Positions 12,116 to 40,093 of a stretch of DNA of 64,000 nucleotides are shown piece by piece. The notes under the pieces were generated by a model. That model saw only the letters and a list, made by a program, of their open reading frames with translations. It was not told the origin of the DNA and did no database searches. Each line of letters opens with the position of its first letter. Within the stretch, counting starts at the first letter, position 1. The position numbers were made by a program, and so were the translations under genes. The DNA is from Xiphias gladius (taxonomy: Eukaryota > Chordata > Actinopteri > Istiophoriformes > Xiphiidae). The stretch is from contig NC_053402.1 of NCBI RefSeq assembly GCF_016859285.1, positions 21,120,556 to 21,184,555 of the forward strand, written 5' to 3'.

Positions 12116-15100
12116 TTATGGCAGTGGGGACTCATAGTACACATCCTCCCCAGGTTCCTCCTCAAATGTCACTTTGCCATCATCTGCATCCAGCTGCAAC
12201 ACAAACACATCCAGTTACAACACAGACACCTACGCATCACATAACAGGATGATGTGTGCCTGAGCTCAGGGTCGAGCACAGCACATACAGAGAGGTACTT
12301 ACACATTTCATCTCCATGACAGTGAAGAGCCTGCCGGTCATGAACATGCGCAGTGGGATGGTGAGAATGAGAACAAAAGGCAGAGCCAGAGAGAAGGGAC
12401 TCATCTTCACCAACCACAGGACGGCCAGACACACGAGCTGGATTAGGGTGAAGAGATGCATCCGCAACGTCTTAACCTGCAAATACCAGACGGAGGAGGG
12501 TGTTAGCAGAGGAACTCTGAGTTAAAGACCAATATGAAAAGGCACAAAATGGTAATATATGCTATGATCATTTACAGGGATATTGTCTTAGGCTAATATA
12601 CACCGAAATATAAGGGAAAGTGGGAATTGCTGGACGGGCTGACTGGGCACAGACCCAGGGGCTGAAGAGATAAGGGGCCCATGGGCCAGGACCTATCTCT
12701 AGACATAAGGGTGTGCCACATGAAAATATATTAATGATCAGAGTGAAGTCACAAACTGTATTTAGGGGAGTTGCATACCCTGGTGGCGTAGGCATCAGAA
12801 GGATGGTATTTCTTTGGTGTGATCAGCAGAAGCATCCTGTCCCACATCTGGATTCCGCTCAGAGAGGTGATACCCATGTAGAGGAAGATGCCGAACAATG
12901 CCGTCATGGGAATCATCTTCAGTATAGGTTCCATGTAAATAGAAACACCTAGAAATCACAGAAAAAGAATGATGATTCAGGGAAAATGGCTACTTATTCC
13001 GATCCTGCTGGGTTTGTGTCAGTGCTGAAGACGGCAGCCCTTACCGACCAGGATGGCCACAAGAAAGCCACTGATCCTCTGCTCGATCACCTTCTCAATC
13101 TCTGGTTTCGGGCCCTTGGACATGACAGTGAGAGCATTGGCGTGGGTGACGGATCGCACAGTGGCGGCGCTCAGCCAGGGCACCCCGAAGATAGAGGAGA
13201 TGCCTCCCATGGTGACCAGGATGAGGAGATCAAAATGGAAGCCAGACCCTTTCATCATCTTCCTCTCAGGTTTGCTCACAATCAGGCTGAAGGTCCACAG
13301 AGACCATTGAAAGAAACAACAATTTCTTCAAAATCTTATCTTGATTTCTTGCACTGAGTTAATTAGCTTCACACGAAGTAGACGGTAATGGCATCATTCA
13401 TAGTGTCACTCACGTCGTAATCTGGGACTCGAGGAAGATGAGGATGAAGACGAGCAGTGCAGGCACACAGCAGGCAGCCATCATCCAGATGGGGAAGTCC
13501 TTCTTTTCTCCCATGGGGTTGATAAACCAGCCTCTGGCTTTGGGGTTGGTCACTTCAACTCCTTTTGGCACAACCAGTTTCTACGAGAAGACAGGATGAT
13601 ATTCACTCAGGAGACACACAAATAGAGGCATAACTTTGGCCTTTAGTAAACACTCGTTGTAATTTTGTACTGATTCACTGTGAAGCATACAGGGACAGGA
13701 AAATCAGAGAGGATTGTAACCTGGGATATATTACATACTGGATAAAGGAGCGTAAACTTTATTCATCTTCCTTTTTATCTGTAGGAAATGAGTTCATGGC
13801 AGACAACTAATTAATACCTCAGTATAGACCAAGGTAAATACTAACACATGCATATAGGTCATATGGTTTTGTGTCTGTTGGTGGTTGATTGACTTAGGAA
13901 AAAGATCAAACGAAGGTCATAGTCTACCAACTTACTAATGTGTCAACCCAAACTCTGGACGGACACAAGAAGTTTGAACAGTGTGACGATCATGTCATCC
14001 ACATTCAAGATCTTCTTGATATCATATGGACCAAATTTAGTAAAAAGTATTTACACAGATTACTACAAACAGATTCCCTGCCACCTTATATGAAGGACTG
14101 AAGTTCAAGTTCAATTGCTATGACCGCAACTATGACCCAAAAATAAATTAATAAATAAATAAAACAGCTAAAATTAAATCTTTGGAATTTTTTCGGGCAG
14201 AGGCATTAAAATGGAGTCAAAAGACAAAAGTATCTCGAGTATATGGGCACACAAGCAAATCTAAGTATAAAAGATCTCATGTTGTTCAAAACAAAAGTGC
14301 ATACTACAGGGTAAAGTTTAAATTCAAGAATGTAATTCTTGAATTTAATGGCTCAAAAATCATTGTATTTGTCCTTGATAACTAAACTAAATCCTCCACT
14401 GTAAAATCTGCTCCAAACCATTAAGCAACTGAGATACTCAGTTAATGATATATAATTTTATTATTTTTCCATAGCCTGTGTAAAGTGTGTGTGTTCTACA
14501 TACATTATCTTAATTGCACACAGTATGAGCTTTGACAAACTCTAAGGAAAAAACGATATGAGCAATTTTTTAGAACTGTTTTGGGATACTCTCACAACAC
14601 TTACCTGAGTGTAGGCATCCTCAATGCTGATATCCACAGCGATCATGATGAAAATAGCAATGGGGACGCCGAAATCTCCGATCAAACGACGGATCTAGTG
14701 AGACAGAGATATGATCAATATCACAGGCACCTGCCTGATGGATTTCTCCTACTTCACAAGTCTCATCAAAGCTACACCTTCCCTAGGAACAGAAAGTTGG
14801 TCTTACGGGGCCTGGAAGGTAATGACCATTCTTGAATTGCCGGAGGAAGTATGCGATGAAGAAGCAACCAAACATCAGGCACATAGACAGCAGGGCAGTG
14901 TTGGGGTATGGCCTTTCAATCTCCAGCTCGTGGATGGTTACGTTGCCGTCTGAATGGTACTCGATGTGCTCCGTGATGACTGGGTGGAAGGGGTTGTCCA
15001 GCGTGGTGTTCAGATGCTCGTAGTTCAGAATCAGAGGGTGGGTTTTGAAGATCTGAGCGAGAGGAGAGGAGATGTCAGAGGTAGCAAAAATACAGTGGGA

Positions 15101-18100
15101 CAACACATCAGACGGTGATGCCGTGGAAATGTGATGTGAAATGGATGGAGGGATGAGATGAGGAAACCTTGATGAGCTTATTGAAGGTCTCATAGATGAA
15201 GATGAGCGAGATGAGGATGGAGAAGATTTCTTGGGTGAAGCGGGAGATGAATCGGACCAGGAAGCTGCCTTCCACAGCCACGATGATGATCACGATCACT
15301 ATCAGCCACATCCCCACCCAGATACGACCCACAATGTACTCAATGCCCTGGGACTTGCAGAACTAGTATGGAAATTAACAAAGGAAAATGGATGTTAATG
15401 AAGAAAACATGGCTTTCCAAAGATTGATTACAGGGGTTTTCCCCTCCGATAACTTATACATACAGCGAAAAAAGCTTCCTCAAACACCAACAGTGGTCCA
15501 GAGAAGCCGATGACAAGGACAGGCTGGGCGGCAATAAGACAGAAGATGATACCCTGGATGCTGGTGGAGATCATAAGCTCGGACACACCCATCATTTTTT
15601 CCGTTTTGTCAGCTATGGTCAGACAACAGACAGAATCAGTAGAACTATCAAAGGTCAATCAACTCCTGTCAATGAATTGAGCCCAAGAGATCAGACACAT
15701 CTCTTTATTTGGGACCCTCACTTACACAAAAGTCCTCCAAAAGTGATGGCCGGGGAGAGGGCGGCGAAGTAGATGAAGATGACGGCTGCGAGGACCTGAG
15801 GGTTCAGAGCGTCCGTGTAGTCGCTGATGTAGTGGCGGTAACGGCGCTTAATGTCCCTCACCATCCCACCGAAAGGATAGCCAGTACGGGCCAGAGGGTC
15901 CTCCCTCGGCCCCTCTAGAGATTTGTCAACTGGAAAATCAAACAAATCGAACTGACGTTAATATTGATTACACTAGGTTTGCTTATGATTAGGTTGTTTT
16001 ATAAACCCTTTTATAATTTATCCAGCACAAGTTACATTTGTCTGTTTGTTATGTTTTTATTTTTACTGTTTCCTATGCATAAATGAATTTAAAGACGCTA
16101 CACACGAGGCTTAGAGCCGATCTTCTCAAAATTAAGACCACATTTCTCATTAAGCCGTGTTGGTTCCTTCAGAAAAGGCGGATGTTGCTGCCTGTCCCTC
16201 TTCCAACCCTGTTGCTCAATAAATGTTTTTTTCTCTGTCATTTAGCTGAAGTGGATGCACAAATTTGTTGTTCACATTTTTTAGCATTTAGAGGAAAAAC
16301 AGCCCTCTCTTCCTGTATTGTGCCATAAATAAAGAAAGCAGTTTTTTCAGCAATCCAGCTGCACATCCTCTTTACTTCCACTAACAATGATACCTCAAAA
16401 TCAATCTTTAAAACATTTATAAAAGTGCATGTTTAAGAAGGAAAGGGTCAGGACAAATAAAAAAAAAAAAATCATTGTATTTTCATTTAAAGGACTGTGG
16501 TTTTTGTTTTGTTTTTTCAGCAATTGGAGTGAGGAACTGAAAACTCGTACCATACTCAAAGCTTCAAGAAATTTGTAAAGAAAATTGAATGAACAAATAT
16601 GTGAAAAATGTATGTTGGCACTAGTGTAGCAGGGATAGTAGCTGTAGTTTTAGGCTACTCTACTGTTCTGTTGGGGGTATTGTTTTTTTTGCCGTTGTTT
16701 TTGATTGATGTAGATTTAGTTGATTTCCGTGTTTCGGGGGTAATTCTGTACAGACTGCAATAGATTTCAATAAATTACAGTTAATGTACATAACCAAGAC
16801 ACAGAAGCCTCTCAAACAGAGGATGAAAATAAAATGTGGTTAGGATTTAAAATGCCAGTCTACACTGTTGGACGGCTGTTAGTAGTGTAGAGTACGCTGA
16901 CCTTTGACCCTGTCACCAAATGCAATACGGGAGTCACTGGGGCGAAGTCTGTCGCGCAGCATCTTCTTCTGGAAACCGATGATTGGCTCCAGCATCGCCT
17001 TATCTTGGATCTCAGTGGGAGGAATCACGATGCTGCAGTCCATGAAATCGGCAATGGCATTGGTCAGATCTATCTCAGTCTGGGCCAAGAAGGCTTCCAG
17101 AGAGAACACCTGTCAGAGCAGTGATACAGAAAGCGTTTATTCACCCACGGCAGACACATTAGGCCGCTTTTGACTGGTGCGGCTGTGTACTCTCGCTGCT
17201 GGAGCTACGGGCTGCTGAGCTATTATTTCTCTCTCTCTCTCTCTCTACTTTCTCCTCTCTCTCACCCAGTCAGCCATCAGAGTACCCATGGCTCGCCCAC
17301 TCTCCCTGTAGTCTATCCCGCTCTGGCTGGGGCCCACCAGGACAAAGATGAAGCGGACCGGCACAGGAGACTCCAGGGCAGACTCCATCACCACTGAGTC
17401 GCTCAGTCGGACGAAAGCCACCGCTGGTTTCTGCAGGAAGTCCAGGACACCTATTGGAGACACCAGCTTTTAGCCATATCTCCCCGAGTACTAAATGCGA
17501 AAAACTGAAGACGCATAACTGCATCAGAATGCCATGAACATACCTGAAAGGACAATTGAGGCCTCCATGTTGTCAGAGCTTTCTCTCTGCAAAAATAATG
17601 ATCCAGCAGTACAGTAAGTGACAACTCTGATATGTATGAATACACGAATATGATATTGATGATTAGATTAAATTATTAAAAGTAGATCAAGCTGAATAAA
17701 AACTAGAGAATTATACCTTGTTGGTCACAGAAAATGTCTGCATCTGAATGTCTCCAGAGGGCGTAACCACAGGTCCCTCGGACTGACTGGAAGGCCAAAC
17801 AAAATGAGCATGAAGTATTTTTAAAGCATTATCGTCTTGTAGAAAGAAACAGAGAGACAACGGACCCTGTGGGTTACCTGCGTCTCATGAGGAGAGCCCT
17901 GAGCAGGCCATCCCGGTCGCTGGCACGAATCTCATTCTTGTTCAGCAGTTCGTCAGCCACCTTCTCAGCCACAGCAGACAGACTGCTGGCATTCAGGTCG
18001 AAGATGATGGCCCCTAAGATCACGTGAGGTCGTGTGTTACTGTGGCTTTTTAACTGGTCATTTTCACAGAACCAAAACATGTGGCGTAAACACCGATTTC

Positions 18101-23720: not shown

Positions 23721-26699
23721 CAGTGAGTACAGACTATCTATCTTGCGACCCATTAAAATCAGGTCTACTTGTTACCCCTCAACAAAGACTGTCATTTTAG
23801 TGTGGACACGAGTTGTGAGCAATTCAACCCTAAAAAATAAATAAATATTGTAATCTTGAATTCGTTGGATCACCTCATGACTCCTCAGATTTATCTTGTG
23901 ACCCCCTAGGGGGTCCTGACGCACTGTCCGGGGACCACAGGTGGGGACAACGGTATTCTGTGTCGGCCACTGTTAAGCGATGTCACCCCGCACTTTCAAC
24001 GAGGCCGTGCGACTCAGCGGGACGTCAGCAATTAGGCTGCATGGATGAAACAGTCTATGGCCGCACATACATGTTATCCACATTACACACACACGTAAAA
24101 GAACACGTGCAGTTATGCGTACTTCAACACAACAAGGCCATTGTGTGGAATTTTTCTGCGTGTCACACGAATTCCGAAAACAATTCCCTAAAGCATAAGA
24201 GGCTTTCTTCAACTCCGGCGGGATGTGCCGCGGGGTTTCGACACGGGGTCCAACTTCCTTTCCAGTTTACACCTTCGCACTCAGTCACCAAACCTCCGGT
24301 GTGCTGCGTGCCATTCGAGTTTCCGTTTCCCATGAGCTGGAGGATGAGCCCGAGGTGCTGGAACTGATGAGGAAATAAGGAAGGAACGGATACGTTGCTT
24401 GTTTAGGGAAGTTTCCTCAAAGGCATTAGGAAATCACATAATGATACCACAGCGTTGTCCCTTAAAATAAAGCGTCACCACATCCTCCCTGAAAAATATC
24501 ACAGTATTTAAATCTGCCACATTACATAGGCTTAAAAACTTAGAATGTGACTGTTGAATTATTGCGTGAATAGCAACACGGGGTCTGTGAGTGTGGGTGT
24601 ATTGTACGCATGAGGAAACTCACTGTAATATATTCAAACAATTAAAACAACTAGACTGAGAGCAATGCTGCAGCCATGGTCGCAGCCCTGTAATTGCACG
24701 CCCACAGCAATTAGAGTACTTTGCTATGCACAGCCGAGGCTCTTGGGAATGTCGTAATCGTGACATGTCATAAACCAAGGCAATGGACAAAGTGAAATTT
24801 TGACCCGGGGGCGACGTTAGATGATGAGTGTGTGTCAAAGTTGTTAGAATTTGTCTTGATGGCACCGTGAATGTCTCTGCCAAATTTCATGGCAACTCGA
24901 GACATTTTGATAAACCCCCCCCCACAAAAAACCGCCAACCTCGTGGTTCACATACTGAAGTGCTGCGACCCCACCACGGTAATACTTGCCACACAGAGAA
25001 AATACATACGTACACCGCACAGTGACAGACAGTGGGGCCCAGCTAAAAAAACACTGCGGCACGGGACTGTTATCACCAGTTGTGCGAGCTATCTGCTGTG
25101 CCCATGTGTCTCAACATACAGTGTACAGACACTCCCAGTCTCCGCATGGCACCTTCTGAATCTTCAGTTTGAACACAATATTTGGAGGGAATTTATAGGA
25201 ACACAAAACAGAAGGTAGCGGACTGAGATAAAGAGACAGTTCCAGATCCTGTTTTTTTTAAAAAAATGGGCAAATTGACGGAGCATATAATCGATAGAGT
25301 AACTCATACCAACAGAGTTTAGAAGAATACAACATGGAGGCACCTGTGTGTGAAGCACCAGACATGTGCACAGGGTGTGATTTGGACTTTGGCAAGAACC
25401 TGCGACGAGAAGAAGACCAGAAAAAGATGAGAAGGAAATCTAATTGGCGGAAATACATCATGACATGTTTGCCAGTGTTGGTAGAGTGAAATGCTGCGGA
25501 GTCATTTCAAATGTCAGTCCACCAATGACACGCCACCAAATTCACACGGCTACAGTGCCCGTCAAAAACTGCTCGACCATTCGCTGCGTGTTCTCATGTT
25601 TTGTCGTCTTGTGACGTTGAATCGAAGTAGAAAAGTAGATAAAGAGCCTTTGATGTCAAATTAATCCAAATTAATTACAAATACTAAATACTTGCTTAAA
25701 GTATTCACCCCCTTACTAGTAGGATAGAGCTCAGTCATCACTGGTGAGGCCGGTCGAAGTCACATAATTAGTTAAATGGAGATCAACTGTGTGTAGTCTA
25801 TTGATTTAAATACACGTATACCTATGTCTGGAAGGTCTGACTTGAATACTGTTTATAGGCACTGTACGTTTTCATACAGTCTCATCGGAGGGCTAACTTC
25901 AAGGCAGCACAGATGGGCTCTATCAGCGTCACAACAAGCAGGCTGCCTGGAGTTATCACTGAGAGCCAGAGCCGGAGCCAGCACCCGGGACCCACCTAGT
26001 CGCAGTGTAACACGCTAAACTACACGACATACCATTCATCAACACCTAGTAAATGCAGTCCTGGGTCATTGTAACTTCATTTCGGCAAAACGGAGAAGCC
26101 AGTTTGACCAATATTACAATTATTCAAGTCAGAATACTAAAACGTGCTTATTCTTTATAGACTTTATAGACAAAATCACACACGTTTCGAGTGGTTAATA
26201 TTACTCGTAGCATGTATTTGCAGTCTGAATTGTAACTAAGTGCTACAAACTGCTAAAAATCTTGTTCATTTACTGCATAAAAGTCAATTTAGAGAACAAC
26301 AAAATTCAAAAACACCCTCAAGGGTTGTAGGCTTTTTTTTTCAGACCACTTATACTTATGTCATTTGAATTCTCAAATGTCACACTACTTGACTTAAGTG
26401 TGACACTGTCCCCTTTTTGAACTTGGGAGATGCCACAGAGGCCAAGTACTGAAGACGGAAGTCTTTCTTGAATGTGGCGCCCCTTAGTGTAAACAATGAG
26501 GCAGAAAACTGCATGGCTACGTCTCAATGATTGATTCATTTTGTTGGTCATGCCTATCATGGTAAAGCTCAGCCTGATGAAGTTGAACCAGCTGCAACCA
26601 TAACCTACTCCGTTTTGTAATATTGAAAAGTCATGAAGTTTTTTTTTGTTGTTGTTTCCCCAGCGGTGAACCACAGATTTATTTAAAAAACAAAACAAA

Positions 26700-27690
26700 A
26701 CAAATAGTAGTTCATAAATAATTTACCAAATTGCTGAACAGCACGACTTTAAAGTTCGACTTAAATCTTTTTATTGTCTGCGATGTCAGTATCTACGCAG
26801 GCGCAGAGGGGAACCTAAAGCATAAAACAAAAGAACTTGTCACGCAGGCTGTCAACATAACAGAGTCATGTCATGTCAACTAACAGTGGATATCACCCAA
26901 AGGAGCAGCTCTGCGCTAGAGCTGCACACCATCGCCACATCCAGGTGGGAATTCTTAGAAAGTAGGTGTGTGTTGGTAAACAAGATCTAAAACAGATTTC
27001 TGCACCCAACTATGAAGTAATCATGCGCATGGTCTCTACAGTGCGTTGAGAACAGGAAGACACGCCGTGGTATCATCAAAAAGTGACAAACAGCAGCGAT
27101 TAAACAACCATTACCTTTATTTAAAGTCTACAGTTTGGAAATCGGAGTTAACAAACCAGGATGATTCGTGGAAAATGAGCTGACATCCAATTAGTGAGAG
27201 CTGACAGACCAGTGGGTGGTGGTCTTCAGAAGCACTGCTGATGATTGCTCTAATACCCGACCAGTTTAAATAACAGAGGAGCTTAACATGGGGGGGGGGA
27301 AACAAAAAACAACAACACAGGAGAGCAGCGGATTCAGACAGGATACTAGGCAGCAATACAGCTACTCATTTAAATGGTTTTAAAATAATCCAATTTGATA
27401 TGTATTAACAACAGAAAACTTCTGTAAGTGTAATGTCGCATTCAACTACCAAAAATTATATTACATTGCTTCGCCATCCACCACCTGGTTTTGTAAACAG
27501 TGTTTGAAATAATTATCCGCTCTCATAAAAATGCTTTTTTAACAGCTTATTCAGCACAGAGCGCGAGAGACAGAAACCGCTAGTATCCATTATGCTTTAA
27601 ATGTAATTGAAAGTGCTTTGTACTGTCCTTGCATTCACTTAAAATTGTTAATTTCATGTGAGATGAATAAACAAAGACTTGAAGAACAAA
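26700..27690. repeat. tandem duplication, left copy (unit about 1005 bp)
   Basis: This copy is nearly identical to 27706-28692, offset by 1005-1006 bp, with a 1-bp indel in a G run. It includes a minus-strand AATAAA (plus TTTATT) at about 27116-27121. The right copy carries the same signal next to the selenoprotein gene, so this copy is probably a duplicated piece of that gene's 3' UTR and terminator region. The junction between copies is an AACAAA-type simple repeat. Confidence 0.85.
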
Positions 27691-27705
27691 ACAAAACAAA
27701 ACAAA

Positions 27706-28692
27706 ACAAATAGTAGTTCATAAATAATTTACCAAATTGCTGAACAGCACGACTTTAAAGTTCGACTTAAATCTTTTTATTGTCTGCGATGTCAGTATCT
27801 ACGCAGGCGCAGAGGGAACCTAAAGCATAAAACAAAAGAACTTGTCACGCAGGCTGTCAACATAACAGAGTCATGTCATGTCAACTAACAGTGGATATCA
27901 CCCAAAGGAGCAGCTCTGCGCTAGAGCTGCACACCATCGCCACATCCAGGTGGGAATTCTTAGAAAGTAGGTGTGTGTTGGTAAACAAGATCTAAAACAG
28001 ATTTCTGCACCCAACTATGAAGTAATCATGCGCATGGTCTCTACAGTGCGTTGAGAACAGGAAGACACGCCGTGGTATCATCAAAAAGTGACAAACAGCA
28101 GCGATTAAACAACCATTACCTTTATTTAAAGTCTACAGTTTGGAAATCGGAGTTAACAAACCAGGATGATTCGTGGAAAATGAGCTGACATCCAATTAGT
28201 GAGAGCTGACAGACCAGTGGGTGGTGGTCTTCAGAAGCACTGCTGATGATTGCTCTAATACCCGACCAGTTTAAATAACAGAGGAGCTTAACATGGGGGG
28301 GGGGAAACAAAAAACAACAACACAGGAGAGCAGCGGATTCAGACAGGATACTAGGCAGCAATACAGCTACTCATTTAAATGGTTTTAAAATAATCCAATT
28401 TGATATGTATTAACAACAGAAAACTTCTGTAAGTGTAATGTCGCATTCAACTACCAAAAATTATATTACATTGCTTCGCCATCCACCACCTGGTTTTGTA
28501 AACAGTGTTTGAAATAATTATCCGCTCTCATAAAAATGCTTTTTTAACAGCTTATTCAGCACAGAGCGGCGCAGAGACAGAAACCGCGAGTCTCCCTTAA
28601 GCTTTAAATGTAAGTGCAACTGCTTTGTACTGTCCTTGCATTCACTGAAAATTGGTAATTGCATGTGAGATGAATAAACAAAGACTTGAAGA
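27706..28692. repeat. tandem duplication, right copy (unit about 1005 bp)
   Basis: This is the second copy of the 1-kb unit, immediately 3' of the selenoprotein gene on the minus strand. Most of the unit is virtually identical to the left copy, but about the last 120 bp (28565-28685) differ at many sites. The plus-strand TTTATT at 28121-28126 reads AATAAA on the minus strand and is a likely poly(A) signal for the selenoprotein mRNA, giving a 3' UTR of roughly 950 nt. Confidence 0.85.
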
Positions 28693-28838
28693 ACAAAACA
28701 AAAACCAAAAAAAAAAGGAGGCAGTTGGAGAATCCCAGGCAATGTGGTTGTCGGAAAATAAAAGTGAGCTCCCTCCAACTCCCCGGCAACCCTTCTGCGA
28801 CATCTTCTCCCCGTCTCCGTTCCTATGAGGAGGGAATT

Positions 28839-28904
28839 CCAGGAATGGATTCATCATACCACAGCCGTTCACATTTTAGGCCATAGTAATCATTAACAGC
28901 CTGG
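28839..28904 (-). promoter_or_regulatory. SECIS element of the selenoprotein W2-type mRNA
   Basis: Read on the minus strand, this folds as a eukaryotic SECIS. Basal helix CCAGG/CCUGG (28904-28900 with 28843-28839). Core AUGA at 28893-28890. Then 12 nt, then unpaired AAAA at 28877-28874. ACUAUGGCC pairs along its full length with GGCUGUGGU (with G-U pairs). The 3' core UGAU is at 28856-28853. The spacing from AUGA to the apical AA is typical. It starts 162 nt after the stop codon, inside the 3' UTR, where SBP2 binding would direct UGA recoding. It was identified by eye, without an energy calculation. Confidence 0.9.
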
Positions 28905-29065
28905 AGAACCACTATCGAAACAGAGAGAGGAGCCAGACGGCAGAGCAGAGTCTGGCGACCCGCATCAGGGAAAGTCGCAAGCCTGTGTGGGGAAGAGTGG
29001 GGTAAGCCGGAGGTGGCACCGGCCCGTCTCCATGCTGCTGGTGTTAAAGCAGGACGGAGGGGGGT

Positions 29066-29892
29066 TTACATGATGACGCACGGCGCACGGCTTTTGGTGA
29101 TCTTCTGCACAGGTTTCCCATCGACGGCATCCTGGACTGCATTCATGACCTGTGGCAGGAAACAAACAAAAACAAAAACAACCCCCCCCCCCATAAATCA
29201 GAGACTGTCAAGGCTGTGATTTATGTTTCCACGGGCAGTTTGTGTGAGAGTGTGTTACTCACATCATCCTCATATGGGAAGCCGCCAGTCTCAAGCTTGG
29301 AGAAGACCAGCTGCCCGTTGATTACAATCTCAAAGCTGCCTAAGACACAAAAACAAAAGGAGTTGAGTCAGGACCCCCCCCCTCGCTCGCTTTCTGGAGT
29401 GATCTTAGCACGAGTAATACGTGCCTTCGCATAGAAGGTCAGGCCAGACGAGCACGGCCTGGGTCGGACTTGAATTACTTGCTCTACCAGCTGAAATAAC
29501 ACTTACCTGATCTTCCCACGAAGCCCGAGACGTCCGCATCGGGGAACTCACCCTTGACAACAAGGGCGAGCTCCTGATAGCGGGGCGCGTATCCTCATGC
29601 ACCACTAGACGGAAACAAACAAGCAAACAAAAACAAAAAAAAACAACCTGTTTTAAAAGCTGCTGGCAGAATTTCTGTGGTTCCCGAGGCTGAAACCGGC
29701 GCCGCCCCGTCGCTTCGGCTCAGCTCGGCTAGTGAGCTAATGATGCTAATGGCGGCTAATATACCGACCGACTTTAAAGGGAGACTTATGGGACGGACAC
29801 GGGCACGAGTTAGCTCGAAACTTACATGAAACGAAAACGAGTGTAATAAAAACACACAAGTACCAGTATTCGACTCTAATTGTCACCCCCAT
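29066..29892 (-). CDS. selenow2: selenoprotein W2-type protein (Rdx family, MIEN1-like), UGA = selenocysteine
   Basis: Four minus-strand exons, 29892-29864, 29604-29507, 29339-29263 and 29149-29066, give 95 residues plus TAA. Exon 1 ends in TG and exon 2 begins with T, so the junction reads [18 protein letters not shown]. The TGA at 29597-29595 is codon 13 and forms the CxxU redox motif (C10, U13) of the thioredoxin-like Rdx family. The middle, [20 protein letters not shown], is close to mammalian MIEN1, whose motif is CxxC. The C-terminus PCVIM is a CaaX prenylation box, as in MIEN1 (CVIL). A SECIS lies in the 3' UTR. A normal ORF finder stops at the TGA and misses the gene. Fish SelW2 is known to be the Sec-containing relative of MIEN1; the exact paralogue (2a or 2b) is not settled. 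Likely a membrane-associated thiol oxidoreductase. Confidence 0.94.
29435..29500 (-). other. degenerate tRNA-like fragment in selenoprotein intron 2
   Basis: On the minus strand TTTCAGCTGGTAGAGCAAG resembles a tRNA D arm/A box, and ATTCAAGTCCGACCC follows almost at once like a B box/T arm. There is no anticodon arm, so it cannot be a functional tRNA. It is probably a SINE head or tRNA pseudogene remnant lying within a few bases of the exon 2 donor. Confidence 0.4.
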
Positions 29893-29904
29893 CGCTTCCG
29901 CTTC

Positions 29905-29905
<1 letters not shown>
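29680..29905. repeat. duplicated segment A, copy 1 (contains selenoprotein exon 1)
   Basis: This is nearly identical to 32145-32370, offset by 2465 bp, with one clear difference (GGACACGGGCACG here, GGACACGTGCACG there). It spans the end of intron 1, the exon 1 donor and the start codon. Confidence 0.9.

Positions 29906-29909
<4 letters not shown>

Positions 29910-29943
<34 letters not shown>
29910..29943. repeat. CTG/CAG trinucleotide repeat beside the selenoprotein start codon
   Basis: A run of about eleven CTG units on the plus strand reads as CAG on the minus strand, 18 nt upstream of the selenoprotein ATG. In the frame of that ATG it reads as GCA (alanine) codons. The second copy of exon 1 at 32.36 kb lacks the repeat. 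Confidence 0.9.
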
Positions 29944-29944
<1 letters not shown>

Positions 29945-30354
29945 GCTGATGATGATGATCCACCGGCCGTTGCACCAGTGCGGAGGTCGGTTTCGTGTGG
30001 CGTGTTAGTTTCTTGTGTAAGGCTGACCCGGAGGGCGGGGCGGAGTTTGCAAGACAGCGAGACATCAGTCACACCGGAACTAAAAATCAAAGCGCAGACA
30101 CGTAACCGTGTTAAATATCCTGCAGCAAATTGTTTCGGTCCTCGGTCCTGGGTCACATACAGTTGATTATTTTTATTCTATTTTATTTTTTTAAATCTAG
30201 AAATACTGACACGGGTCGAGGTCCGGTGTGACATGAGGGACGCAAGCGGTTTGAGAGCCTGCTAGGCTGCGTCTGTCCGCTAGTGCAGACCCACCGGTTG
30301 ACTGTCAGGTCTACAGCACTGAGACCGTCTCCGTCCCCGCGCCGCGTCGCTCAC

Positions 30355-32035
30355 AAGTTCCCCTGAGTACGCGAGTGACGAAAATCTGATCACGAAGCCT
30401 TACCGCCGGTGGGTCGGCCCGTTACTGGAAAAACCCCATCCTCGACTGGGGTTTTACAAATACCCGATCCATTACTACTGAAGCCCTGCTGATAAACGAT
30501 GTGATCGGTCGGCGTAATCCCGGGTACGGTGTGAAGCACGCCAGTGCCCACGTACCACACAAGGTGGGGGCCGTCGCCTTCATCTACAAGTCTCATCCCA
30601 ATCTAACCTTCAAGCTGGATTCAACTTTTCCACTCTTCCGAGGCCCTTGTATTAAATGTCACATTGGTAATAAAAGGTCAAGTCGAGTTGACCCCGTGAA
30701 AGAAGCGTTGGAGGTTCATCAAGTGGAACTGAAGTGCAGTCTGATGCCTTCAGCGTGATGCTGTGTGATGTGTCTCCCGTGGTTAGTGAGCTGAAAGTGA
30801 GCCGCCATATTTGATAGATGAATAGCTACATAAAAAAAAAAGATAAAAGAAAACTGCTGATGGTGGGGCCTACAATGTGTCCATAAACGGTCCCCACATC
30901 TTTTCAGACTCTCTTTGGATTTTCCGTGTTCATTTTTTCCAAAGGTAGTGATCTTGAAAAGCCCCTTCAAACCGCTGGCCAAGAGATGGCTTTGGGGGGG
31001 GGGGGTTTCCAACAGGGCAACAGCTGTGCTGCCTCCCCGTCGACAAATTTGAAAAACGATGCATGTTTTCATGCAGAAAGTTGGGCGCTGTTGGGTGTCG
31101 GATCAGGGGGAACAGTACCAGCCGATAAAACAAAAACACAGCTTGGGACAGCCACTGACGTGAAGGGCCGATGCCAACGGACACGCGAAAGATACTGTTG
31201 CTGAGGTGCCCCCAATGGTTTAAACCAACCCCCATCCCTTGGGGCTTGGCCCCCGGTCACGTTCAAGCAGATATATGATGACCAGTGAAGGCGGCAGCGC
31301 TGCAATGTAAAAAAAAACAAACTCTACTACAAGGAAAAGTCCTGCATCACAGGTGGCACCCAAAAGTTCCAATAGCAAAATGCACGTAAAGTATCCAAAG
31401 TAAAAGTAGTCATACTACAGAAAAAGCGGCCCCTGTAAGTTTTGTACTCTTATGTGTTATTTTACTTGATTATTTTTTTACTGATTAAATAGTTGTGAGT
31501 AGCATCAAGCTGGAGCTAATTTGAAGCAGCTCACATACACTGGATGTATTTTACAGGCTCATTGTGTTTTCTGTGTAAAATCTTAATATTTAAAGAAAAG
31601 TAGTAACTTGTAGTGGTCAGATGAACGTAGTAGAAAAAAAAAAACTGCAGTGTTTCCATCTGAACTGTAGTGGAGAAGAAGATCCGGGTAGAAAAGGAAA
31701 GACCCCGGTGAAGCAGCAGCAGCACCTCGGACTGATGCTGAGGTTGAGTTCATTTCAACCCCGGCACTACCTGATCCAGCAGGAGCCCAGTGATCGTTAT
31801 GCACCAAACCCACCTGCTCTCATGCTTATTTTATTCCGATTGTTTGTTTGTTTTTCCTCGTTTCTTTCCAAATTCAATGGCCCACGGTTGTACAGTCAAT
31901 TTTTTTTTAATTTCAGAGTCAATCTGGTCAGTTTCAGCCCGGTGTTGAGAAGCAGCCTCGGAGTGTTTTGACAGACTGAACCGGCTCCCTGCCGCCCGCC
32001 TGCAAAGAGAGGGTGTGTGCGGCATTTATCACTCA

Positions 32036-32076
<41 letters not shown>

Positions 32077-32135
32077 CTCTCTCTCTCTGCGTTTTCTCTT
32101 CGGAGCGGACTGTCGACCCGCTGCCGAGAGGCGTT
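30355..32135. repeat. duplicated segment C, copy 1 (about 1.78 kb)
   Basis: This aligns with 32372-34150 at an offset of 2016-2017 bp, with only scattered substitutions and small indels in mononucleotide runs. I recognise no gene in it. It contains a G run near 30995, a stretch near 31340-31460 resembling a known AAGTA-rich percomorph repeat, and a CA repeat at its end (32036-32073). Confidence 0.9.
32036..32073. repeat. (CA)n microsatellite
   Basis: An uninterrupted CA dinucleotide run at the end of segment C copy 1, followed by a CT run. Segment C copy 2 has the equivalent run at 34053-34092. Confidence 0.95.
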
Positions 32136-32144
32136 GTGTGTGCG

Positions 32145-32370
32145 GTTCCCGAGGCTGAAACCGGCGCCGCCCCGTCGCTTCGGCTCAGCTCGGCTAGTGA
32201 GCTAATGATGCTAATGGCGGCTAATATACCGACCGACTTTAAAGGGAGACTTATGGGACGGACACGTGCACGAGTTAGCTCGAAACTTACATGAAACGAA
32301 AACGAGTGTAATAAAAACACACAAGTACCAGTATTCGACTCTAATTGTCACCCCCATCGCTGCTGCTTCT
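32145..32370. repeat. duplicated segment A, copy 2 (second selenoprotein exon 1)
   Basis: This copy carries an intact duplicate of the 29-nt coding exon 1 (ATG at 32357, GT donor after 32329 on the minus strand) and its splice-site context. It encodes the same first nine residues. It lies upstream of the other copy on the minus strand, so it could act as an alternative first exon spliced to 29604. It lacks the CAG repeat and the 29.94-30.35 kb sequence present in copy 1. Confidence 0.88.
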
Positions 32371-32371
32371 G

Positions 32372-34051
32372 AAGTTCCCCTGAGTACGCGAGTGACGAAA
32401 ATCTGATCACGAAGCCTTACCGCCGGTGGGTCGGCCCGTTACTGGAAAAACCCCATCCTCGACTGGGGTTTTACAAATACCCGATCCATTACTACTGAAG
32501 CCCTGCTGATAAACGATGTGATCGGTCGGCGTAATCCCGGCACGGTGTGAAGCACGCCAGTGCCCACGTACCACACAAGGTGGGGGCCGTCGCCTTCATC
32601 TACAAGTCTCATCCCAATCTAACCTTCAAGCTGGATTCAACTTTTCCACTCTTCCGAGGCCCTTGTATTAAATGTCACATTGGTAATAAAAGGTCAAGTC
32701 GAGTTGACCCCGTGAAAGAAGCGTTGGAGGTTCATCAAGTGGAACTGAAGTGCAGTCTGATGCCTTCAGCGTGATGCTGTGTGATGTGTCTCCCGTGGTT
32801 AGTGAGCTGAAAGTGAGCCGCCATATTTGATAGATGAATAGCTACATAAAAAAAAAAGATAAAAGAAAACTGCTGATGGTGGGGCCTACAATGTGTCCAT
32901 AAACGGTCCCCACATCTTTTCAGACTCTCTTTGGATTTTCCGTGTTCATTTTTTCCAAAGGTAGTGATCTTGAAAAGCCCCTTCAAACCGCTGGCCAAGA
33001 GATGGCTTTGGGGGGGGGGGGTTTCCAACAGGGCAACAGCTGTGCTGCCTCCCCGTCAACAAATTTGAAAAACGATGCACGTTTTCATGCAGAAAGTTGG
33101 GCGCTGTTGGGTGTCGGATCAGGGGGAACAGTACCAGCCGATAAAACAAAAACACAGCTTGGGACAGCCACTGACGTGAAGGGCCGATGCCAACGGACAC
33201 GCGAAAGATACTGTTGCTGAGGTGCCCCCAATGGTTTAAACCAACCCCCATCCCTTGGGGCTTGGCCCCCGGTCACGTTCAAGCAGATATATGATGACCA
33301 GTGAAGGCGGCAGCGCTGCAATGTAAAAAAAAAAAAACTCTACTACAAGGAAAAGTCCTGCATCACAGGTGGCACCCAAAAGTTCCAATAGCAAAATGCA
33401 CGTAAAGTATCCAAAGTAAAAGTAGTCATACTACAGAAAAAGCGGCCCCTGTAAGTTTTGTACTCTTATGTGTTATTTTACTTGATTATTTTTTTACTGA
33501 TTAAATAGTTGTGAGTAGCATCAAGCTGGAGCTAATTTGAAGCAGCTCACATACACTGGATGTATTTTACAGGCTCATTGTGTTTTCTGTGTAAAATCTT
33601 AATATTTAAAGAAAAGTAGTAACTTGTAGTGGTCAGATGAACGTAGTAGAAAAAAAAAAACTGCAGTGTTTCCATCTGAACTGTAGTGGAGAAGAAGATC
33701 CGGGTAGAAAAGGAAAGACCCCGGTGAAGCAGCAGCAGCACCTCGGACTGATGCTGAGGTTGAGTTCATTTCAACCCCGGCACTACCTGATCCGGCAGGA
33801 GCCCAGTGATCGTTATGCACCAAACCCACCTGCTCTCATGCTTATTTTATTCCGATTGTTTGTTTGTTTTTCCTCGTTTCTTTCCAAATTCAATGGCCCA
33901 CGGTTGTACAGTCAATTTTTTTTTAATTTCAGAGTCAATCTGGTCAGTTTCAGCCCGGTGTTGAGAAGCAGCCTCGGAGTGTTTTGACAGACTGAACCGG
34001 CTCCCTGCCGCCCGCCTGCAAAGAGAGGGTGTGTGCGGCATTTATCACTCA

Positions 34052-34094
<43 letters not shown>

Positions 34095-34148
34095 CTCTCT
34101 CTCTCTGCGTTTTCTCTTCGGAGCGGACTGTCGACCCGCTGCCGAGAG

Positions 34149-34150
<2 letters not shown>
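32372..34150. repeat. duplicated segment C, copy 2 (about 1.78 kb)
   Basis: This is the second copy of the 30355-32135 segment. It ends at a GAGAGGCG motif where the sequence changes from the selenoprotein-side flank to the GT repeat and then the GIMAP-like first exon. The duplication breakpoint therefore lies between the CA and GT repeats at about 34.15 kb. Confidence 0.9.

Positions 34151-34181
<31 letters not shown>
34053..34181. repeat. (CA)n and (GT)n microsatellites at the duplication breakpoint
   Basis: CA repeats occupy 34053-34092 and GT repeats 34151-34181, separated by about 60 bp. They are in opposite sense, so they could pair as a fold-back. They mark the right end of the tandem duplication. 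Confidence 0.9.
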
Positions 34182-35008: not shown

Positions 35009-38000
35009 TTTTTGACCAACAACTTAAAACACAAAGATTCTCAATTTACTTTCATATAAGACCAAGAAAACCAGCAAATCTTTAGATTTCAGAAACTTGA
35101 ACAGGTGAACTTTTGCTTAAAAATACTTAAATGATGAATCTATCAGCAACAAAGATGATGCACGTCAAAGATATTAAAATTTAAAGATATGCAATTGACT
35201 TTTGTAAAAGACAAAGAGACGCACCAAATATTCACATTTACGGAGCTGAATCCAGTGAAATATTACCGTTAAAAAATGATGACTTTTAACAATGTTGTAT
35301 ATTATGATATTCAAACTCAAAGATATTCAGTTTAACGGACTGAAACCAGTGACTTATTTGAATTTTTGCTTTTAAAAATGCCTTAAAAATGGATTATAAA
35401 CACTATTGCCAATTAAATTGACAACTAAATAAATTGAGTAATTGTTTCAGGTTTACATTTTGCCCACTGTTTGCTCAGGGTATGAATGCACTTTATATGT
35501 TCCTCCTAAAAAATGCATCAGCCCATTTGAACAAGAAGTTTGATTTTAGGCACTGTAGCTCTAATATTAACCCTTCTCTTCCTTGCTTCCTCTCTTCCTC
35601 CTGCTTTACTGATGTCCTCTTCTTTTTTAGGGGACGGCTGGTGTACTTCGCAGTTAAAGATCGTCCTCCTTGGTGGCAGGAACTCTGGCAAGAGCTCTGT
35701 GGGGAACTTACTCCTGGGGAAAGAGGAGTTTGTCACCAAAGAGAGGACGTCCTGCTCCCGGAGGCTGGGCAAGGTAGCCGGGCGGTGGCTCACAGTGGTG
35801 GACACTCCCGGCTGGTGGTGCGACTTCGGCGCTCGGGACACATCTGAGCTGGTGAAGAGGGAGATCGTAAGTGGCGTCTCCCTGTGCTCACCGGGCCCGC
35901 ATGCGTTGCTGATCACCGTCAAGGCGAGCTCGGCCTTCTCCGAGAGGCGCCGGCGGGCTGTGGAGGAGCACGTGGCCCTGCTGGGCAAGAGGGCGTGGAG
36001 TCACTGCCTGGTCGTCTTCACCTCTGCCGACAGGTCGACGCACACAGAGGCAGAGGAGCGTGTGCAAGCAGGGGGGGGGGCTCTCCGCTGGCTCAGCGAG
36101 AAGTGCGGTCGGAGGTGTCACAGTGTTATGCTGAGCGATGACACCGAAGCCACCGAGCTGCTTGAAAAAATACAGAAACTTGTCACGGAAAATGGAGACG
36201 GCGTGTTTGAAATGCAGGAGGGCATTTCACAGGCGACTGCGGAGGAGACGAGAAGAGTGGCGGAGAGAGCTCAGCGGAGGTTCCTGAGAATGAGAAAACA
36301 CAGATCTCTCATGCAAGGTGAGTGAATTATTATGTTGCTGTTGCTGCAGCCATATAAAGCATCGGCTCCCTGTGTCAAAGAACCGTTCCAAATATGACGG
36401 AAAAAACGGCTCTGCTGCAGGCCACACACCTATACACATCTAGTTTGAAGGGCAAGGCTGGTGATACTCTACAGTTTTCTTACCGTCACCAAATCCCTCT
36501 CACTTCTTTCGGACTTCCCTACCATGTCCATGGCACCCGTCACCAAGTCTACTTGTCCCTGAAGATGTAAACCTTTGGAAACAGGTCACAAATATACATA
36601 GTTTCATCCCTAAAAAGGCTCAGTAATTTCCCAAACACAGCTGGACACTGAGGTTTCTAGCAAAGTCAACTGAAAGAGGAGGCGTTTGAATTTTTTTCAA
36701 GCCGAGGATTAATCCACATTCGGTGCTCTAGTGGATCCGTCCTGCAGCAGGACATTGTATGTGGGGCTGAGTCAAAATAAACTACATGTTCGTGTGTTCA
36801 TGGTCCTGAAGGAACTAGTCAACCAGTGCAACAGTGCGGCCTAACGATGTGTTTTAAACCGTTTCTGAGCTCTTATGGCACAGAGGAATAAGATATCAGG
36901 CTTATGGTGCACAGACAATACTTGTTAGTTGGATCAGGTCATTGTTGGTTCTGTTTTTTTCATGTTTTTTGTTGAAAATAATAAAACACCTTTTACTTTT
37001 GGACGGAACCAGGTTAGCCGTTTCCCCGTTCCTCTAGTCTTGATCTAAAGCTACGCTAAGCTAACAGGCTGCTGGCTCCGGCTTCATGTTACAGGATACG
37101 AGTGTGATTCTCATCTAACTCTCATTAAGCAAGCAAACAAAGCGTATTTCCTAACACGTCAAACCGTTCCTGTAACCTAGACGGTTTCTAGCGGTTTCTT
37201 GACCTGCAAGTCATCAAATCAGCACAATGTAGAAAATACCATGAATATAAGTTGGAATAAACACCTAAGCTTTTTAAAAACCCTCCTTCTGCTCTGTATT
37301 TCTTTCCCTCAGAGAGGTTGCGGCCCATTACTAATATCAGGATTGTGTTGGTGGGAGCAAAGGGTTCCGGGAAGACTTCGGCCCTGAATACAATCCTGGG
37401 CAGAGACGGCAACCGGCCGCTGGGGAGAACAGCTCAGTGTCGGGCTGGACAGGGAGTGGTGTTTGGGAGACATGTGACTGTGGTGGACACTCCCGGCTGG
37501 TGGATGAACTACTTGTGTGACGAGAGTACCGTCTTCGACAAGAGGGAGATGGTGTTCGGTCTGTCCCTCTGCCCTCCTGGGCCTCATGTCCTCCTGCTGG
37601 TGATCCGCATGGACAGAGCCTTCAGCGAAACCTACAGGAGAGCAGCGCAGGAGCACCTCCAGCTGATCAGCGCGGGCATCTGGAGTCGGGTCATCGTGCT
37701 GTTTGGCTTCGGGGACTGGCTGGCAGGCACCACCGCTGAGCAGTACATCGAGAGTGAGGGGGAGCCCCTGCGGTGGCTCGTTGAGAGATGCGGCAACAGG
37801 TATCACGTTCTGAACAATAAAACCAAAGGAGATGGATTTCAAGTCAGGGAGCTGATTGGGAAGATCGAAGAAATGCTGGCTGAGGGCACCAGCTGCCAAT
37901 ATTACGAAATAGAGAGGGATGTGATGGAGCAGCTGGAGGCGAAGATGAGGAGAGAGATGGCGAGAGCCAAGGAGAGACTGATGAAGAAGGAGAAACAAAG

Positions 38001-40093
38001 GCAGATGGCGAGGGCTCAGCTGGGTGAGTTACCTACATGTAAAAGTGATAAACAATGTCAGCATGATATTGTTTCACTTATTTGATAAACAATATTCAGT
38101 TTAGTTTTTGAGATGTTCTTTTCTGTTTTGGACGTAGTTAAATCGGAAAGAATTAGTCTGCCATGTTTCTGACAGATCTGTAAAACTTCTTTCCAACAGA
38201 GAAGCTCAACCCTCTTTCAGAAATGCGGATAGTGCTTGTGGGTGGCGGGAAAACAGGCAAAAGCTCATGTGGAAACACCATCTTGAGCAGAGAGTGCTTC
38301 GACACAGAGACCCAAACCACTTCCTGCGCTGAAAAACGAGGCCAAATTAGCGGCAAGATGGTTACAGTTCTGGACACGCCAGGCTGCTTCTCCGTGACCT
38401 CTGACCTCCTCACGGCTCCCTCATCCTGTGCTATCCTTCTGGTCGTCAATGTGAGCTCCGCATTCAAAGATACCCACAGGGAAAGCTTGGAGAAACAGCT
38501 GGAGGCCGGAGGAGGCCAGGCGTGGAGTCGAGCCGTGGTCCTGTTCAGCCACGGTGACTGGCTGGGCGACACGAGCGTCGAGCAGCGCATCGAGACTGAA
38601 GGAGAGCCGCTGCGGAGGCTTGTTGAGAAGTGTGGGAACAGATACCACGTCCTGGACAATAAACAGCCGGGAGACGGACGTCAGGTTAGCGAGCTGATCG
38701 GGCTGATGGAGGAGATGCTGGTTGACGAACGGCTGGGAGTTCTTCACAGAGGTGATGGGTGGAAAAGTGTTTCTGCAGCGCAAGAGCAGGAGCCGGACGC
38801 TGTGAGGCTGTGTAAAAAAGAATTAAAGGCGTCCTGTGACTGTAAGTAAACCTGAACTCAAAATTGTAATGATCTTTATATATATCTATATATATCTAGA
38901 GATATATCCTGGCTTGTGACCGCTCGTTGACAAGTGGTCACAGGAAACTGCATCCACATGGTCACAGAAAATATAAACCTAAATGAGTTATATGAAATAG
39001 TATGTAATCATATAGAACATTTAAAGAACATGCACAATGTCATCCTGTTCTTATTAAAACAGACAACAGAGAAGTGTACAACATACAGAATACGTAGCAC
39101 ATACAGTACAATAAAAAAAAAAAAAAAAAAAGGCATATCAGGTGCAACATGGGGAAGGATCGAAAAAAATCCGGTTTATGGTGTAAACGATAAGGTAGCC
39201 CTCTCTGTAAAGGAGAGATAAGCTGAAACATATCTTAGGATGGGTGGAGGCGGTTGTTAAAGGATAGGCTGGAATTTTTATAGCTCACGTGAAATCACAT
39301 CAGTGTTGTTATTTCCTTTACAGTGACTGAATCAGCCACTCCCACGACACAAACTTCACCAAACTGCTCGGAAGGCGCAGATGCTGGTTGTCAGACGGTG
39401 GCGGTGCCAGCAGAGAGAGCGCGAGGACGGACTGGACTCACCACCCTGGACAGAGACGGCTTCATGTCCGTCTTAACCTCTGTGCTCTCTGGAAAAAAAG
39501 GACTGAGGTGGATCGCCGCAGGCCAACAGAGCTTCACGGCAAATCTACCCATCTGGTTCCCTGCTGATGACCCTCACGGCAGAAGGAGAGTGAACGATGA
39601 AAGCCAGGTGCGCCCGTATTCACCCACACATCCCACAGTGCTTTTAGTTTTACCTCAAACACAGAACGGAGTGCTCGCAGAGGGAAACCTTATTAATCTG
39701 GAGTCCCTTCGCCACCCGGCCCTGAGGGATGGGACCCTCAGGAGGCTCACTGAGCCTGGAGGCCTGCAGCAGCTGATCGACCAGTGGGGCGACAGCAGCC
39801 TGGAGGAACTGGAAGCCTTCATAGACGCGTACTTCGAGATGGTTTGGGAACAAACGGCGGGGCCATCTCGGCCGACTGCGCCCGGCTCTCCTGCCACGGA
39901 GCAGGACGCTGCGGTCGGGGAGGCTGGAGAGGAGGAAGTGCTCTCGTCCATAGACAGGAAACTCTCAAAGCTGGAGCTCCTTGAGGAGATCAGGAGCGAT
40001 TTGGCGAAGCTGAGGGAGAGTCTGGAGCACAGCTGGAAGGCCATACAGGAACTCAGAGACAGAAGTAAACAAGACCCCAATAGTACATATTGA
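34371..40093 (+). CDS. GIMAP8-like protein with three AIG1 GTPase domains and an unidentified C-terminal module
   Basis: Five exons, 34371-34395, 35631-36317, 37313-38023, 38200-38841 and 39324-40093, total 2835 nt and 944 residues. Every intron is phase 1. Exons 2, 3 and 4 each encode one AIG1-type GTPase domain. P-loops are GGRNSGKSS (about 23-31), GAKGSGKTS (252-260) and GGGKTGKSS (489-497). G3 is DTPGW, DTPGW and DTPGC. The AIG1 conserved box RWLVERCGNRYHVLNN is clear in domains 2 and 3 and weaker in domain 1. Charged helices follow domain 2. Exon 5 (689-944) has no AIG1 motif; it has a roughly 130-residue hydrophobic/charged segment and a terminal coiled-coil-like helix (LELLEEIRSDLAKLRESLEH). 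GIMAPs are membrane- or organelle-associated GTPases mainly of immune cells; mammalian GIMAP8 also has three G domains. The start MATSELSA was chosen because its phase-1 donor fits exon 2. The first exon is short and less certain than the rest. Confidence 0.88.
34953..35000. repeat. AT-rich microsatellite in GIMAP-like intron 1
   Basis: A near-continuous AT dinucleotide run followed by a T run, inside the 1.2-kb first intron of the GIMAP-like gene. Nothing else was recognised in that intron. Confidence 0.9.

Follow-up and report, generated by a model that had tools for sequence, protein, structure and literature searches.

Among the closest described relatives of the gene reported here are selenoprotein W2 (SelW2) and MIEN1, the latter known under the older name Rdx12. 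Selenoprotein genes are easily overlooked in annotation, since their UGA codon looks like a stop. The available part of PMC3316567 describes SelW2 (in 2012) as a selenoprotein with a CxxU motif in bony fishes, frog and elephant shark, regards the Rdx12 of tetrapods as a remote homologue with Cys, and lists the copies SelW2a, b and c for fishes; the Sec codon of pufferfish SelW2c has turned into CGA (Arg). According to the available part of PMC6738349, MIEN1 is prenylated by GGTase-I at a C-terminal CAAX motif (CVIL) and is anchored at the plasma membrane.

We analysed a 64,000-nucleotide stretch of Xiphias gladius DNA (the window, in whose numbering all positions are given), which almost certainly contains a functional four-exon selenoprotein W2 gene (SELENOW2; Rdx family) with a UGA that would be decoded as Sec. 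On the minus strand of the window, from 29892 to 29066, four exons with GT-AG at every intron join into a frame of 95 codons, in which the TGA at codon 13 is the sole in-frame stop. The features of the coding region are as follows.

29864 to 29892, minus strand: coding part of exon 1, MGVTIRVEY plus the TG of Cys10; donor gtactt
29507 to 29604, minus strand: exon 2, from the T of Cys10 through G, A and the predicted Sec13 to G R S; acceptor tctag, donor gtaagt
29595 to 29597, minus strand: UGA, predicted to be read as Sec13 in a CGAU motif; the column is Cys in the family comparison (4 alignments, of 10 matches)
29263 to 29339, minus strand: exon 3; acceptor tcttag, donor gtgagt; matches Pfam Rdx on its own (1.2e-5)
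29066 to 29149, minus strand: coding part of exon 4 with the TAA; C-terminal CVIM (CaaX-like), aligned to the last residue of MIEN1

The original prediction had joined 29864 to 29604 to obtain TGT GGT GCA TGA, and every position that it gave is correct on the minus strand, with the TGA at 29597-29595. Exon 1 ends in ...TAC TG, followed by GT, and exon 2 starts at 29604 after ...TCTAG, so that the junction yields C10-G-A-UGA13, the proposed CGAU form of CxxU, near the N-terminus and with the UGA at codon 13 of the joined frame. Also as proposed, exons 2-4 stay in phase up to a natural TAA (29068-29066), giving a 95-residue product with no further in-frame stop. The Sec codon itself had been placed at the splice junction, and this part does not hold: the codon that intron 1 splits (TG/T) is that of Cys10, while the Sec codon occupies bases 8-10 of exon 2, the UGA starting 7 bases into the exon. 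The span 29507-29604, offered as the extent of the feature, is real but covers exon 2 alone. Exon 1 is short, with 29 coding bases (29892-29864), and its donor (CTG/gtactt) is one that we do not take to be a strong match to the consensus; in comparisons with PDB sequences, its residues 2-9 align to MIEN1 and residues 1-9 to mouse SelW.

Probes from exons 2, 3 and 4 each occur once within the window, as does a probe from the SECIS-like hairpin described below. A tblastn search of the window with the product found no second SelW2 gene body: it returned the four exons, which as self-matches have no bearing on family membership, and a second exon 1, all remaining rows having E values of at least 0.63. 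Among the neighbouring genes, three AIG1/GIMAP GTPase frames lie on the plus strand at 35531-38849 (Pfam AIG1 2.4e-28, 3e-30 and 1.4e-28), and an SLC4 anion-exchanger exon lies on the minus strand at 14783-15289 (Pfam HCO3_cotransp 2.6e-10, with AE2 and band 3 among its PDB matches). Taken by themselves, the SelW2 gene and these neighbours point most probably to a teleost, and less probably to a frog or shark.

For joining, exon 4 was cut as 29149-29068, base 29068 being the T of the TAA. For profile and structure-sequence searches, the product was entered with Cys in place of Sec13. The full product matches Pfam Rdx (PF10262) at 3.8e-20 (72.3 bits against a curated cut-off of 22.6) and NCBIfam TIGR02174 (SelT/SelW/SelH) at 2.1e-23 (82.4 bits against a cut-off of 34.2), in agreement with the Rdx-family identity originally proposed. 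The search of solved structures gave 10 distinct sequences at E values of at most 1, with alignments for 4 of them. The best match is human C17orf37/MIEN1 (PDB 2ljk; 1.8e-29), gapless over residues 2-95, and the second is mouse selenoprotein W (PDB 2npb; 1.7e-8, residues 1-65). Six more sequences, SelW-related bacterial proteins among them, follow at 6.2e-5 to 0.029, and two further ones (E 0.33 and 0.87) are at chance level. A scan of prokaryote contigs for relatives of the product yielded 136 pattern stretches, none of which was confirmed.

These comparisons bear on whether unrelated open frames have simply been joined by chance. Exons 2 and 4, scanned singly, match nothing in Pfam, as such a join would allow, but the MIEN1 match runs without a gap across all four exons and is decisive. 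Because of this match over residues 2-95 (1.8e-29), together with the Pfam Rdx match of exon 3 alone (1.2e-5), we do not regard the joined frame as a chance product, the probability of which is practically nil. The matches to the family profiles and to MIEN1 show that the frame belongs to a genuine gene before as well as after the TGA. At the TGA itself, where a stop in the family alignment would have counted against the original prediction, the relatives carry Cys (in the 4 alignments among the 10 matches), and the frame is conserved on either side, the arrangement by which selenoprotein genes are recognised. The proposal is supported: a selenoprotein of the Rdx family, its position 13 being U, gives the best reading of the sequence.

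Within the family, the product resembles MIEN1 (C17orf37, Rdx12) both in the gapless alignment and in having a C-terminal CaaX (CVIM here, CVIL in MIEN1), and differs from it in having a Sec codon where MIEN1 has Cys (CGAU against CEPC); the 2ljk chain carries 23 extra residues ahead of the aligned part, some of them perhaps an expression tag. Mouse SelW shares the GAxGY around the active site and an Rdx-type sequence, but its match is far weaker and stops short of the CaaX tail. With the SelW2 proteins (SelW2a/b/c) that the available part of PMC3316567 reports from fishes, frog and elephant shark, the locus has in common a SelW-type sequence with CxxU, here as CGAU in a MIEN1-like product and accompanied by a SECIS candidate. 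As a working definition of SelW2, set here from the available part of that paper, we took a sequence closer to Rdx12/MIEN1 than to SelW1 that nevertheless has a Sec codon, and this is what we find (1.8e-29 against 1.7e-8). The gene fits SelW2 because it is MIEN1-like throughout but carries CGAU.

Since the nearest solved relative is MIEN1, with Cys at the column in question, one might instead suppose a MIEN1 gene of the Cys type, in which the UGA arose from a Cys codon (UGC/UGU) through a private mutation or is an error of sequencing. The surroundings of the codon speak against this, reading CGAUGY here and GACGY in the aligned mouse SelW, where MIEN1 has CEPCGF. In such a gene there would, moreover, be no reason for a SECIS to be present, and SelW2 of fish carries Sec (PMC3316567, available part). 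We consider a Cys-type gene extremely unlikely, and retain SelW2 as the identity of the locus.

The original prediction did not include a SECIS element. We identified a candidate in the 3' UTR, 173 nt 3' of the stop codon.

28838 to 28906, minus strand: candidate SECIS, with a lower helix UCCAGG/CCUGGA, a core of AUGA (from 28893) and UGA, a 10-bp upper helix and a 12-nt apical loop, UAAAAUGUGAAC

Its elements follow one another in the order AUGA-UUACUAUGGCC-UAAAAUGUGAAC-GGCUGUGGUA-UGAU. All 10 pairs of the upper helix are standard, counting 3 G-U pairs; the U that directly follows AUGA stays unpaired, and the apical loop carries AAAA. Both helices, upper and lower, are present in the MFE as well as the centroid structure. 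The 69-nt stretch has a folding z of -2.31, with 6 of 200 shuffles folding as well, and a 91-nt stretch around the candidate has a z of -1.57 (12 of 200); these scores are modest. A GA/GA core, a helix and an unpaired apical AA are thus found both by pattern and by fold, with a pattern chosen post hoc and with no Rfam SECIS match: at gathering level, Rfam matched nothing of any kind in the whole window, and in 28400-29070, up to an E of 10, its four matches include no SECIS family and are all below gathering scores.

When the two strands of the window were scanned with a SECIS pattern that tolerates at most one mismatch, the 28838-28906 hairpin was the single hit. None of 40 simulated windows contained a perfect helix of 10 bp or longer, while tolerating at most one mismatch gave a mean of 0.825 hits per window, close to the single hit in the actual sequence. 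The chance estimate is optimistic because the pattern was written after the candidate had been spotted by eye; the candidate owes its weight to its position behind a matching gene. In the predicted mRNA, the distance from the UGA to the SECIS core is 421 nt, which lies inside the range of 207-5207 nt given for mammals in the available part of PMC3316567 and exceeds the minimum of 51-111 given there. A tRNA search of the window, conducted with the bacterial code, found none, a result without bearing on the Sec reading. About 120 bp downstream of the candidate lies a tandem duplication (26687-27706/27693-28715, overall 26687-28715), with a period of about 1.0 kb, 98.4% identity and AACAA-type repeats at its borders.

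A further tandem duplication, which includes exon 1 together with about 1.8 kb upstream of it, affects the 5' end of the gene.

29676 to 34161, no strand assigned: tandem duplication, with copy A at 29676-32142 and copy B at 32141-34161; the identity is 99.5% in 1,791 aligned bases and 98.3% in a further 231
32329 to 32357, minus strand: coding exon 1 for the second time, with the same letters as 29892-29864 and the same donor after it
29907 to 30354, minus strand: 448-bp segment of copy A that copy B lacks; as BLAST places the gap, it starts with GTGAGC and its last letters are AG; most of a (CAG)n repeat lies inside it

The end of exon 1 at 29864, as originally proposed, holds, yet it is not the only choice, because the identical copy at 32357-32329 encodes the same residues. 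The 448-bp segment ends 14 bases upstream of the ATG, and its exact gap placement is uncertain because of the CAG repeat. Copy B resembles a version from which an intron of the 5' UTR has been taken out, yet the beginning of the following intron and about 1.8 kb upstream are still there. The difference may reflect a deletion with one end inside the CAG tract, the gain of an intron by copy A, or haplotypes placed end to end in the assembly; likewise, the duplication as a whole may be recent or may represent two haplotypes that the assembler laid end to end. The triplet repeat itself (CAG/GCT, 29900-29948, about 16 units) lies directly upstream of the SelW2 ATG and shares its frame, where it reads as consecutive Ala codons; this open frame contains no upstream ATG.

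A 5' region that is duplicated, or possibly misassembled, is also a point in favour of a recently inactivated copy, in which the UGA, by default a stop, would be just that, leaving a pseudogene or a 12-residue peptide. Against this, the 95 codons contain neither a frameshift nor another stop, GT-AG is intact at every intron, the UGA falls on the Cys/Sec column of the family, and the SECIS candidate has both its core and its apical AA. The SelW pseudogenes treated in the available part of PMC3316567 are without the SECIS GA, which is kept here. We therefore judge inactivation to be very unlikely, and a functional SelW2 gene remains the reading that we adopt.

In the expression of such a gene, splicing of the pre-mRNA would bring the four coding exons together in one mRNA. 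The selenocysteine machinery includes SBP2, eEFSec and Sec-tRNA. When the ribosome reaches the UGA at codon 13, the 3' UTR hairpin, which follows about 420 nt later, would recruit this machinery, and Sec would be inserted. The predicted product is a 95-residue oxidoreductase of the thioredoxin fold, with CxxU as its presumptive redox-active site. Its C-terminal CVIM would probably be prenylated, and the protein would thereby be held at a membrane, on the cytosolic side.

The C-terminus of the product, CVIM, has the form C-aliphatic-aliphatic-X of a CaaX motif, and since the product ends in this way, prenylation and membrane anchoring like those of MIEN1 are likely. By analogy, the CVIM tail is probably prenylated as CVIL is in MIEN1; a terminal Met in a CaaX favours farnesyl over geranylgeranyl. 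Whether the protein would be a lipid-anchored selenoprotein, with a Sec redox site on a CVIM-prenylated protein and Sec chemistry kept at the membrane in the way presumed for the Cys chemistry of MIEN1, we consider an evenly balanced question. No prenylated selenoprotein is reported in the available parts of PMC6738349 and PMC3527542 or in the literature searched, which lies mostly outside subscription journals.

The exon structure, the family match and the SECIS candidate account for what looks like a broken reading frame. No new kind of gene is added thereby, as the kind is already known from the SelW2 of bony fishes, of frog and of elephant shark (PMC3316567, available part). If, however, SelW2 is prenylated like MIEN1, a selenocysteine enzyme would be placed at a membrane.
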